Source: Ureibacillus sp. FSL W7-1570
GTDB lineage: Bacteria > Bacillota > Bacilli > Bacillales_A > Planococcaceae
NCBI RefSeq assembly: GCF_038593265.1
Contig: NZ_CP151979.1
Span: 496,001 to 560,000 of the forward strand
Length of the DNA stretch: 64,000 nucleotides
Direction of reading: 5' to 3'
The notes beneath the pieces were generated by a model that was not told the origin of the DNA, did not search any database, and saw only the letters and a list, made by a program, of their open reading frames with translations. The first letter of the stretch is position 1, and each line of letters starts with the position of its first letter. Both the position numbers and the translations under genes were made by a program. Shown here in pieces: positions 9,085 through 62,256 of the stretch.

Positions 9085-9114
9085 GATTGTTCAACTTGAT
9101 AATGGCGGATGATT

Positions 9115-9290
9115 GTGCGGGGAGAGAACGTGTTTACGTCGCCGAAGGAGCAAGTAGGGGAACTATGAATCTCTCAGGCAAAAAGACTCGTACGGGACGC
9201 AACTCTGGAGAGCGCTGATTTTTCAGCCACCCAAGGGGAAAGCCTGCTTTTACAGTAGGTGTAACTTTCAGGTGAAAGGACAGAGAATTC
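9115..9290 (+). promoter_or_regulatory. Tandem glycine riboswitch (gcvT RNA)
   Basis: Two consecutive aptamers of the gcvT class are visible. The first runs from GGGGAGAGAACG through GCCGAAGGAGCAAG and ATCTCTCAGGCAAAAAGAC to about 9196. The second runs from AACTCTGGAGAGCGC through AGCCACCCAAGGGGAAAGCC and AACTTTCAGGTGAAAGGACAGAG. The conserved CAGGCAAAA/CAGGTGAAAGGAC blocks are diagnostic. It lies immediately upstream of gcvT; in Bacillus this RNA switches on glycine cleavage genes when glycine binds. Confidence 0.95.
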
Positions 9291-9320: not shown

Positions 9321-9374
9321 ACCTATATTAATTAATGAGCTTTTAAAGAGGATCCAGTAAAGGGAGGTTTCTTG

Positions 9375-14890: not shown

Positions 14891-14934
14891 ACAATATATT
14901 GTATGTTCGTTTTGTTGGACATACAATATATTGT
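14891..14934 (+). promoter_or_regulatory. Paired NrdR boxes upstream of nrdJ
   Basis: The 12-mer ACAATATATTGT, itself a perfect palindrome, occurs at 14891-14902 and again at 14923-14934. Centre-to-centre distance is 32 bp, three helical turns, the classical arrangement for the dNTP-sensing repressor NrdR. It precedes a ribonucleotide reductase gene, which makes the assignment strong. The remaining bases 14745-14890 are AT-rich without a recognised gene. Confidence 0.9.
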
Positions 14935-14998: not shown

Positions 14999-15784
14999 AT
15001 GGTAATGATAGATTCGTATACGACCATCCTCATTGATCAATTGAACAAAGATATTGAACAATTCCCGCAAGTTCACCCGATTACGCCGGACATGCATGTG
15101 ACGCATAAAGGTGTTTCGAGACTTGTCATGATTGACCGATATTCCTTCAAGGATACGGAAAAAAAGACGTTAAAACCAGGCGATTTTGTTGTATTAACCA
15201 TTAAGGAAGATCCAAAATTTCCAGCCCGCGGTTTAGGTTATATCCAATCAATCGATTGGAAAGAAAATAAAGCGGAAATTTTGATTGAAGAAGAGTACCG
15301 AAATGTGCTCGATGATCCGAAAGAACAAGAAACGGGCATCATTGTTCGATCCCTTGATATCATAGAAAAACCCCTTGAAATTTTTTATGAACAAATCGCG
15401 AAACGAAACGCAACCGGTTTGGCTGCCGTTGAGGAAACAGAAGAAAAACGCAGCGAATGGTTCCAAAAATTTTATGAGCAATTGGCTTCTTTAAAATTTG
15501 TGCCAGCTGGACGTGTTCTTTACGGTGCAGGATCCGGAAAACAAGTTACATATTTCAACTGCTATGTGATGCCTTTCGTTCCTGACAGCCGTGAAGGAAT
15601 CAGCGAACATCGCAAAAAAGTTATGGAAATTATGAGCCGGGGCGGCGGTGTCGGTACGAACGGTTCAACACTAAGACCGCGCAACACACTTGCAAGAGGG
15701 GTTAACGGAAGATCGAGCGGTTCTGTATCATGGCTTGATGACATTGCGAAATTGACCCATCTTGTTGAACAAGGTGGATCCCGT
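14999..15784 (+). CDS. nrdJ: Adenosylcobalamin-dependent ribonucleoside-diphosphate reductase, exon 1
   Basis: Exon 1 encodes residues 1-262 of a spliced 854-aa class II ribonucleotide reductase, which makes deoxyribonucleotides using adenosylcobalamin as radical source. The visible end is RSSGSVSWLDDIAKLTHLVE then QGGSR. The reading frame meets a TAA directly after the exon, so unspliced mRNA gives only this inactive fragment. The downstream half resumes at CGTGGAGCC (R-G-A-Q-M-I), restoring the family sequence GGSR-RGAQMIML. AAGGGAGG precedes ATG 14999. Control by NrdR is likely from the two upstream boxes. Confidence 0.92.
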
Positions 15785-16327
15785 TAAGACCATGGCGGGA
15801 TTAAAATCTCGTGAATTGCTGGAACACCCTTAGAGCCTTGCACACCACAACGTAGCTGGCAACGGCAAGCGTGATGGTTTGAAAAGGGCAAGGATTGGGC
15901 AATCAGCAGCGAAGCATCTCTGGAAACGGAGATGAACGTTCAACGACTATTGAAATTTCCTACGGCACTCCATACAATAATAAAAAGTATCTAATACAAG
16001 GTGGTACTTATAACGGGTGCTATGGAAAGAGTAAACCATAATCGACGGCAACGTGGTTATGGGGCACGAGACAAAGAGGAAAAAATCATACGGCTATGCT
16101 AAAAATGTCAATGCAATAACACCAAAACAAGGTTGTTATGAATTATGCATTAGTAGTATCAAGGATCTCAAAGCAATTTATAAAAAACTTTATGAATATG
16201 GAGACCTGAAACTTTATCGCAAATATGAAGAATTTTCCTCTTTGATGATATAGTCTGATCTCATGCGAAAGCATGAGAGGATGGCAGAAATGACCATCCC
16301 CGTTCATGATGAACGAGTAACAACCAG
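15785..16327 (+). ncRNA. Group I self-splicing intron interrupting nrdJ
   Basis: 543 nt. Exon 1 ends in T (15784) and the intron ends in G (16327), as required. P1: exon ATCCCGT pairs with intron GCGGGAT (15795-15801), giving a U-G wobble at the splice site. P10: intron CCATG (15790-15794) pairs with exon 2 CGTGG (16328-16332). Conserved core strings are seen: P AATTGCTGGA (15814), Q AATCAGCAGC (15901), R GTTCAACGACTA (15938-15949), S GATATAGTC (16247-16255); P7 is GACTA/TAGTC. After S come P9-type hairpins, CTCATGC-GAAA-GCATGAG (16260-16277), GGATGG/CCATCC and CGTTCA/TGAACG. Splicing leaves nrdJ in frame. Confidence 0.93.
16053..16253 (+). pseudogene. Decayed LAGLIDADG-type homing endonuclease fragment inside the intron
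   Basis: A 66-codon frame lies between the R and S core elements. Its second half, YELCISSIKDLKAIYKKLY followed by LKLYRKYEEF, resembles the C-terminal end of intron-encoded LAGLIDADG endonucleases (..YLxRKYxxF). The N-terminal catalytic repeats are absent and the start has no ribosome site. Part of a coding-like stretch upstream (15952-16038, EISYGTPYNNKKY) is in another frame and ends in a stop, suggesting deletion and frameshift. Its stop codon overlaps the S element. Assignment rests on remembered motif resemblance only. Confidence 0.5.
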
Positions 16328-18106
16328 CGTGGAGCCCAAATGATTATGCTTGCCGACTGGCATCCGGATATTGTGGAATTCATCATTTCCAAAATGCAAA
16401 ATCCGCGCATTTTGCGTTATTTGATTGAAAACATGGAAGATGAATCCATCATTCGCCATGCAAAAGAAAAATTGAAATTCACGCCATTGACTCCTCTTGA
16501 AGAAGCGATGTACCAAGGAATCGTCAACTACAAAAACATCCCCGGCTTGGGAGGATTCAGCGAGGCGGTCATCAAAGAAGCGGAAGCGAAATTGCGCGAT
16601 GGCGGAACATACAGCGTACACAATCCGGACTTCTTAACAGGAGCGAACATCTCCGTCACAATTACCAATGATTTTATGGAAGCGGTGGAAAAAGACGAAG
16701 AATATCCGCTTCGATTCCCGGATGTGGAAACATATACGCCGGAAGAAATGGCCATCTACAATGAAAAATGGCATAAAATCGGGGACGTGAGAGAGTGGGA
16801 AGCTCTCGGTTACCGGGTGCGCACTTACCGGAAAATCCGCGCGAGAGAGCTTTGGAAACTCATCAACATTTGTGCGACTTATGCAGCTGAGCCTGGCATT
16901 TTCTTCATTGATAATGCAAATGAAATGACGAATGCCCGCGCTTACGGCCAAAAAGTGGTGGCAACAAATCCATGCGGTGAACAGCCACTGGCGCCATATT
17001 CCGTATGTAACTTGGCGGCCATCAATTTGGCGAACTTTGCATTGAAAGACCAAAAAACAGTCGATTTTGAAGCGTTGAAAGAAACGGTGCGTGTCGGCGT
17101 CCGCATGCAAGACAACGTCATCGATGCAACGCCGTATTTCCTTGAAGAAAACCGCAAACAGGCTCTTGGAGAGCGACGTGTCGGTCTGGGTGTAATGGGA
17201 CTCGCTGATTTGCTCATTTACTGTGAAAAAGAATACGGTTCAAAAGAAGGAAATGAGCTGGTTGATAAAGTGTTCGAAACGATTGCAACAACCGCTTATG
17301 AAACCTCCATTGAACTGGCAAAAGAACGTGGCAGCTTCCCATTCTTGGTAGGAGAGACGGAAGAAGAAACAAAACGTTTACGAGAAGCTTTCATCAATAC
17401 AGGCTACATGAAACGCATGCCTGAACATATTCGTCAAGGGGTGCTCGAACACGGCATCCGCAATTCCCACCTGCTTACGGTTGCGCCAACCGGATCAACA
17501 GGTACAATGGTGGGAGTGGCAACCGGTTTGGAACCTTACTTTTCCTTCACTTACTATCGTTCCGGCCGTTTAGGAAAATTCATCGAAGTGAAGGCGGAAA
17601 TCGTCCAAGAATACTTGAGAGCGCATCCTGAAGTAGATGAACACAATTTGCCGCATTGGTTTGTGACGGCAATGGATTTGACACCGGAAGCTCACGCGGA
17701 TGTGCAATGCATCATCCAACGTTGGGTGGATTCGTCCATCTCCAAAACGGTGAACGCGCCAAAAGGATATACGGTGGAACAAGTGCAAAAAGTGTACGAA
17801 CGCCTATACAAAGGTGGAGCCAAAGGCGGAACGGTTTACGTGGATGGCAGCCGTGATTCCCAAGTATTGACATTAAAAGCGGAAATGACGCATGAAGAAC
17901 AGTTAACATTTGAGGAATTGGAAGACGAAAAAATTGAAAAACCGGTTGTGCTAGTTGAAACGATTGCGCCGCTTCAACAAACAAATGTGAATATCGGTTC
18001 GGAAGTGGGCGATACATGCCCTGTCTGCCGTCAAGGTACGGTGGAAGAAATTGGTGGATGCAACACATGTACCGTTTGTGGCGCCCAATTGAAATGTGGA
18101 TTGTAA
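16328..18106 (+). CDS. nrdJ: Adenosylcobalamin-dependent ribonucleoside-diphosphate reductase, exon 2
   Basis: Encodes residues 263-854. Starts R-G-A-Q-M-I-M-L-A-D-W-H-P-D-I, a strongly conserved RNR stretch. Key active-site segment: NPCGEQPLAPYSVCNLAAIN (Cys and Glu of the radical site). VAPTGSTGTMVGVATGLEP is the phosphate-binding region. The C-terminus carries a CPVCRQG...CNTCTVCGAQLKCGL zinc-ribbon/redox cysteine tail as in other NrdJ proteins. The apparent ATG at 16340 is only an internal Met; no ribosome site precedes it. No small subunit is needed, and none is found nearby. Confidence 0.93.
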   Translation, partial: RGAQMIMLADWHPDIVEFIISKMQNPRILRYLIENMEDESIIRHAKEKLKFTPLTPLEEAMYQGIVNYKNIPGLGGFSEAVIKEAEAKLRDGGTYSVHNPDFLTGANISVTITNDFMEAVEKDEEYPLRFPDVETYTPEEMAIYNEKWHKIGDVREWEALGYRVRTYRKIRARELWKLINICATYAAEPGIFFIDNANEMTNARAYGQKVVATNPCGEQPLAPYSVCNLAAINLANFALKDQKTVDFEALKETVRVGVRMQDNVIDATPYFLEENRKQALGERRVGLGVMGLADLLIYCEKEYGSKEGNELVDKVFETIATTAYETSIELAKERGSFPFLVGETEEETKRLREAFINTGYMKRMPEHIRQGVLEHGIRNSHLLTVAPTGSTGTMVGVATGLEPYFSFTYYRSGRLGKFIEVKAEIVQEYLRAHPEVDEHNLPHWFVTAMDLTPEAHADVQCIIQRWVDSSISKTVNAPKGYTVEQVQKVYERLYKGGAKGGTVYVDGSRDSQVLTLKAEMTHEEQLTFEELEDEKIEKPVVLVETIAPLQQTNVNIGSEVGDTCPVCRQGTVEEIGGCNTCTVCGAQLKCGL

Positions 18107-61846: not shown

Positions 61847-62017
61847 CTAAAAATTTTAAATAGGCTATCTATTTTGATACAAAAGAAAGCAAAAATCTTA
61901 ATTTTGTAATGGCTGAAAGAAAAAATGAGTTGTCAAATTTTTAATTCTATTTAGAAAGATATAGAAATTTTTGAATCTATATGCTACAATACTATTAAAT
62001 TTCAACAATTGAATATT

Positions 62018-62173
62018 CCATACGGTGCTAATGAAAATTAGCTTAATAGGGAAACTAGTGAAAATCTAGTGCGGTCCCGCCACTGTGAAGAGGAGCTCAA
62101 AATCAAATGCCACTGTGAAAATGGGAAGGCGATTTTGGAGCGATGAATCTAAGCCAGGAGACCTGCCGTATGG
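62018..62173 (+). promoter_or_regulatory. Cobalamin riboswitch
   Basis: P1 CCATACGG (62018-62025) pairs with CCGTATGG (62166-62173). Between are GGTGCTAATGAAAATTAGC, AATAGGGAAACTAGTG, the conserved GCGGTCCCGCCACTGTG, and the B12 box AAGCCAGGAGACCTGCC. This is the AdoCbl/cobalamin class, located before the cobalt importer genes, which it should shut off when B12 is plentiful. Confidence 0.97.
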
Positions 62174-62256
62174 AGTGGATGGTAGTGTCCTACGAGGATA
62201 GGTACACGAATAGGCATCATACTAGCATTATGCGTATCGTTATGCCTTATTGTGGG

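Follow-up and report, generated by a model that had tools for sequence, protein, structure and literature searches.

A group I intron with the debris of a LAGLIDADG endonuclease gene in nrdJ, the B12-dependent ribonucleotide reductase gene of Ureibacillus sp. FSL W7-1570

The window, the whole 64,000-nt stretch of the Ureibacillus sp. FSL W7-1570 genome that was analysed (NZ_CP151979.1, positions 496,001 to 560,000; positions below are those of the window unless indicated), contains on the forward strand a ribonucleotide reductase (RNR) gene in two pieces. Exon 1 (14999–15784) comprises codons 1–262, ends in GGSR and aligns with positions 5–263 of NCBIfam NF005991, the equivalog profile of the B12-dependent RNR, and exon 2 (16328–18106) starts with RGAQMIML and aligns with positions 264–858, the two matches meeting with neither gap nor overlap. 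The bit scores are 1189.4 for exon 2 and 494.5 for exon 1, relative to a cut-off of 854 which is set for the whole protein. On these profile matches the interrupted gene is identified as that of the class II (B12-dependent) ribonucleotide reductase NrdJ. The intervening 543 nt (15785–16327, forward strand) open with an in-frame TAA (15785–15787) as the first intron codon, directly after the exon 1 end CCCGT, and close with G16327. Excision of 15785–16327 gives a single NrdJ of 854 aa with the junction GGSR/RGAQMIML, which the first-pass annotation had anticipated from joining 15784 to 16328. The insertion point is the conserved GGSRRGAQM motif, the empty site having the sequence GGATCCCGTCGTGGAGC. 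In annotation, nrdJ is here one joined gene, not two fragments.

The insert had been proposed to be a group I intron, and the Rfam covariance search that the proposal called for returned RF00028 (Intron_gpI) at 70.8 bits (cut-off 50, E 5.8e-16) with the full model, 1–253, matched. This is the single RF00028 match across the complete 3.28-Mb genome. Two marks of group I membership are present, the U15784-G15795 wobble pair in P1 at the 5' splice site and the terminal G16327, and the suggested comparison of nrdJ homologues recovered genes both with and without the insert, which favours an intron. Combined with the restored NrdJ frame, the covariance match confirms, at the level of sequence, that 15785–16327 is a group I intron in nrdJ with both splice sites as proposed. 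It is exceedingly improbable that the insert is another element, such as a group II intron, IStron, intein or transposon, that only resembles a group I intron. Nothing specific speaks for this, apart from IStrons also including a group I part (PMC4227781), whereas no reverse transcriptase, transposase or intein frame was detected within the 543 nt, the in-frame stop with which the insert starts excludes an intein, and the group I core displays covariation.

The group I fold was modelled on the window sequence, all helices lying on the forward strand. The internal guide (15790–15801) pairs with both exons, forming P1 with the end of exon 1 (15778–15784, ATCCCGT, with 15795–15801, GCGGGAT; 7 bp including U15784-G15795) and P10 with the start of exon 2 (15790–15794, CCATG, with 16328–16332, CGTGG). 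P1 is exactly as first described, with its terminal U-G, whereas the P10 that had been called exact does form 5 bp but includes one U-G pair and is not strictly so. P3 pairs 15807–15813 (TCTCGTG) with 16065–16071 (CACGAGA), followed by the P4-P5 domain (15816–15909), with P4 at 15816–15821 and 15904–15909 and a P5 extension at 15836–15841 and 15888–15893, and by the P6a hairpin (15915–15934) with a GAAA-type loop. P7 is formed by 15945–15949 (GACTA) and 16251–16255 (TAGTC). A P7.2-like helix (16036–16041 with 16057–16062) is placed between the P7 5' strand and the P3 3' strand, as in subgroup IA introns, and the subgroup is probably IA. P8 (16072–16083 with 16233–16244, spanning 16072–16244) is 12 bp long and encloses an endonuclease remnant in its loop. 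P9 (16260–16277), P9.1 (16279–16299) and P9.2 (16301–16315) precede the final G before exon 2. The core helices and P9 hairpins, like P7, were found where the first-pass annotation had placed them, and the core is backed by the following alignment.

Conservation of the fold was assessed in an alignment of 24 distinct introns inserted at the identical site, from which the endonuclease stretch was removed and for which helices were defined from the window sequence. P3, P4 and P7 are paired in 100% of cells in the 24 introns (168/168 for P3, 120/120 for an invariant P7), and P1 (166/168), P3, P4, the P5 extension, P6a (186/192), P7, P7.2, P9 and P9.1 (the last two at 99%) all lie at 97–100%, with P8 at 90%. 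Pairing is weaker in P10 (70%), P5 (71%) and P9.2 (41%), low scores which arise in part because the 3' ends of the Lysinibacillus introns align poorly. Overall, 91% of pair cells are standard, compared with 82% in shuffles (maximum 84%). Compensatory double changes occur at 32 base pairs, although kinship among the aligned rows can inflate such counts; they include two pairs in P3, three in P6a and four in each of P9 and P9.1, and compensatory changes are also seen at 6/6 pairs of the P5 extension, 5/6 of the P7.2-like helix and 7/12 of P8. Double changes at this many pairs are hard to explain otherwise than by a conserved structure.

Established group I chemistry predicts that splicing would begin with an exogenous guanosine, held at P7, cleaving the RNA behind U15784. 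Exon 1, once released, would next attack behind G16327, and the two exons would be ligated. A ribosome would be halted at the initial TAA of the intron before reaching the ribozyme, and in-frame stops at 5' splice sites have been interpreted as ribosome stalling in a review (PMC3984707).

The P8 insertion includes a 66-aa ORF with no above-cut-off Pfam match and none in NCBIfam or PADLOC. As it aligns with intact endonuclease copies and lacks a profile match, it was rejected as a genuine gene, and by alignment it is identified as debris of a LAGLIDADG homing endonuclease. Two remnants are discernible, both on the forward strand. The N-terminal remnant (16022–16102, MERVNHNRRQRGYGARDKEEKII...) can be aligned to the intact endonuclease genes of same-site introns and overlaps P7.2, the P3 3' strand and P8; the C-terminal remnant (16095–16253) lies in another frame, corresponds to the last 50-odd codons of the endonuclease gene and matches intact genes in tblastn at up to 64% identity (E 4e-20). 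Approximately 0.6 kb, including both LAGLIDADG motifs, is deleted between the two, the intron being 543 nt in the window versus ∼1169 nt in genome G191. No intact two-motif LAGLIDADG endonuclease is present in the window intron, in which the longest frame is 72 aa. Intact full-length copies are found in Lysinibacillus and other Bacillales, within introns at this site. Within the family, 15 of the 19 introns at the window's site (window counted) hold an open frame of 257–333 aa with both LAGLIDADG motifs, those without being the window, G208, G230 and G257, and the endonucleases of two examples tested matched Pfam PF14528. The element would have arrived through endonuclease-driven homing, its LAGLIDADG gene later being destroyed by deletion, which would leave an immobile passenger that must still be spliced. 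The best full-length relative, the Bacillus coagulans intron (77%), has likewise lost its endonuclease gene.

RNR genes are familiar hosts of group I introns, of which more than 100 had been curated there by 2009 (PMC2795772). Those of bacterial nrdE and nrdF have been reviewed (PMC3984707), and the review cites Meng 2007 for a bacterial RNR gene with such an intron. A description of the GGSR/RGAQM insertion site in nrdJ was not found in the openly licensed papers searched; the same site is nevertheless occupied in many sequenced genomes. Among 25 genomes of the genus, nrdJ is uninterrupted at the window's site in most, and this site, here site a, is filled in 0/24 other members. A survey of the family detected an NrdJ match in 222 of 261 genomes, about 57 of which, window included, are interrupted near GGSR/RGAQM. 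Four insertion sites were assigned by hand from the junctions, with boundaries taken from sequence, and all fall within a 30-nt stretch of nrdJ. Besides the window, 18 species from two genera of the family have site a (GGSR/RGAQM) filled; site b, one codon farther downstream, is filled in 7, site c (GGSRRG/AQM) in 25 and site d (LAD/WHPD) in 6, with an apparent second intron at site d in 6 genomes of genus g18. A check of 80 named records showed site a to be occupied as well in Geobacillus thermodenitrificans, Anoxybacillus ayderensis, A. flavithermus, Metabacillus niabensis, Lysinibacillus xylanilyticus, L. sphaericus and a B. coagulans MAG. Related introns with LAGLIDADG genes directly follow EQGGSR in three genomes of the class whose NrdJ is more distant (∼40% identity). 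The window intron is an ordinary member of a widespread family which repeatedly invades the same spot in nrdJ.

Several interruptions in the genus were set apart from this intron. The inserts of G022 and G002 were rejected as the same intron, being located 6 nt downstream (GGSRRG/AQM); that of G022 contains a different endonuclease-like ORF. The nrdJ break of G014 was rejected as an intron: a G run immediately ahead of the intron site lacks one base, and this loss, either real or a sequencing error, shifts the nrdJ frame. In G001 and G002, nrdJ is additionally broken around codons 480 and 652, and some of these breaks give group I matches.

Same-site introns of Lysinibacillus, g18, Geobacillus, Anoxybacillus, Metabacillus and B. 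coagulans share the insertion site, guide sequence, core and P9.1 of the window intron, and many have the endonuclease family of the window remnant in P8; most Lysinibacillus and g18 copies, however, retain a full LAGLIDADG gene of which the window copy has only the ends. The best tree of intron cores places the window intron with those of B. coagulans, Geobacillus and Anoxybacillus (support 88/86), a position that is not strongly supported. A clade of the window and Lysinibacillus introns alone was rejected (p-AU 0.002), while neither a clade of all family introns (p-AU 0.10) nor one of the window with g18 alone (p-AU 0.12) was. These last two results leave some room for old vertical inheritance with loss from the rest of the genus, as does the lack of a near-copy among known introns (best ∼77% over full length). 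Such a history is possible but the less probable one, given that site a is filled in none of the 24 other genus members, that the window intron falls with Bacillaceae/Anoxybacillaceae introns on the best tree and that the Lysinibacillus grouping fails. Horizontal arrival of the nrdJ intron is likely on this comparative evidence. Window-by-window exon identity revealed no long co-conversion tract beside the intron; the last ten codons of exon 1 differ from those of G020 at a single position, in the splice-site codon, which is CGT in the window and CGC in G020. A single clade of site-b introns is rejected (p-AU 0.017), and those of G070 and G067 are sisters of Lysinibacillus site-a introns, which suggests that introns can shift by one codon, as though from site a downstream to site b.

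More distant likenesses extend to phages. Group I introns of Bacillus nrdE, nrdF and recA and of phages Twort and SPbeta (PMC3984707, PMC3653736) likewise interrupt RNR or DNA-metabolism genes, often at conserved motifs, and some of the bacterial ones are phage-like; these introns lie in class Ib nrdE/nrdF or in recA, in contrast to the class II nrdJ of the window. Introns in lysin genes of Staphylococcus phages (Sextaecvirus, for example PP212901.1) are 79–82% identical to the 5' core (intron nt 7–165), a likeness which agrees with the phage link drawn in the review (PMC3984707). They differ in host gene and in encoding an HNH endonuclease, rather than the LAGLIDADG type of the window's family, and no similarity was found between them and the 3' part of the window intron. 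Flagellin genes of Bacillus-type bacteria also contain group I introns; those of G006 and G004, in the same genus as the window, have a related core (79–80% over ∼150 nt) in another gene and site, and a related group I intron was observed in nrdE of G024.

The first-pass annotation had made the essential dNTP supply dependent on splicing unless another reductase exists. As stated, splicing as the sole dNTP route is rejected, as the complete genome encodes an intact, intron-free nrdHIEF cluster, in which nrdE is TIGR04170 and nrdH, nrdI and nrdF were named from order and sequence, not by profile search. Immediately ahead of nrdHIEF is a cobalamin riboswitch (141.9 bits; locus L044 2689–2874; genome contig C1 about 465688–465873). 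In a survey of the class I RNR region in 20 other genus members, a cobalamin riboswitch was present at the class I RNR in 18/18 nrdJ-bearing members, comprising 17 nrdE loci and that of G020, and nrdJ was not found in G003 and G015, the riboswitch being absent from G003, whose genome is 99% complete, and present in G015, whose assembly is fragmented. The G020 class I large subunit (746 aa), also behind a cobalamin riboswitch, is unlike most NrdE of the genus.

A second, complete class Ib RNR could allow nrdJ to persist as a pseudogene around an intron that no longer splices, dNTPs being supplied by nrdHIEF, and decay of the homing endonuclease would fit with this. We consider it very unlikely. 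Every modelled core helix is intact, as are the exons over 854 aa, and the nearest intron-free orthologue is 98% identical in protein over the whole length while DNA identity is ∼83–97% across windows, indicating that both nrdJ exons are under purifying selection. In addition, a riboswitch at the class I RNR in all nrdJ-bearing genus members examined makes most sense with a working NrdJ. We are highly confident in the alternative, a phage/Bacillales-type group I intron which would have arrived by homing between nrdJ codons 262 and 263, lost its LAGLIDADG gene and kept its ability to splice.

Two exact ACAATATATTGT palindromes (14891 and 14923; 14891–14934, forward strand), 32 bp apart, lie upstream of nrdJ, and paired AT-rich palindromes at the same spacing are also observed upstream of nrdHIEF (L044 2681–2724), overlapping the riboswitch start. 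Both pairs resemble, and may be, tandem NrdR boxes. Elsewhere in the window, a tandem glycine riboswitch (9109–9285) precedes a gcvT-like gene at 9372, and a second cobalamin riboswitch (62006–62184) precedes ORFs resembling the cobalt-transport genes cbiM/N/Q.

We infer that, with B12 available, synthesis passes from NrdEF to NrdJ. In that case NrdJ, and with it splicing, may be most important at high B12, because nrdHIEF follows a cobalamin riboswitch. A stronger proposal, that nearly all dNTP synthesis in B12-rich cells proceeds via nrdJ and so requires a GTP-dependent ribozyme, making splicing a conditional bottleneck or regulatory checkpoint, is speculative and rather improbable. Because an intron-split, B12-dependent RNR is here backed up by one behind a B12 riboswitch, changing the B12 supply offers a way to test what splicing costs. 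In the family, a 30-nt stretch of nrdJ is a group I intron hot spot, with four sites and approximately a quarter of the family's nrdJ genes affected, and its introns, whose endonuclease genes are seen at several stages from intact to decayed, provide a natural series for the study of homing and of small shifts in insertion site.
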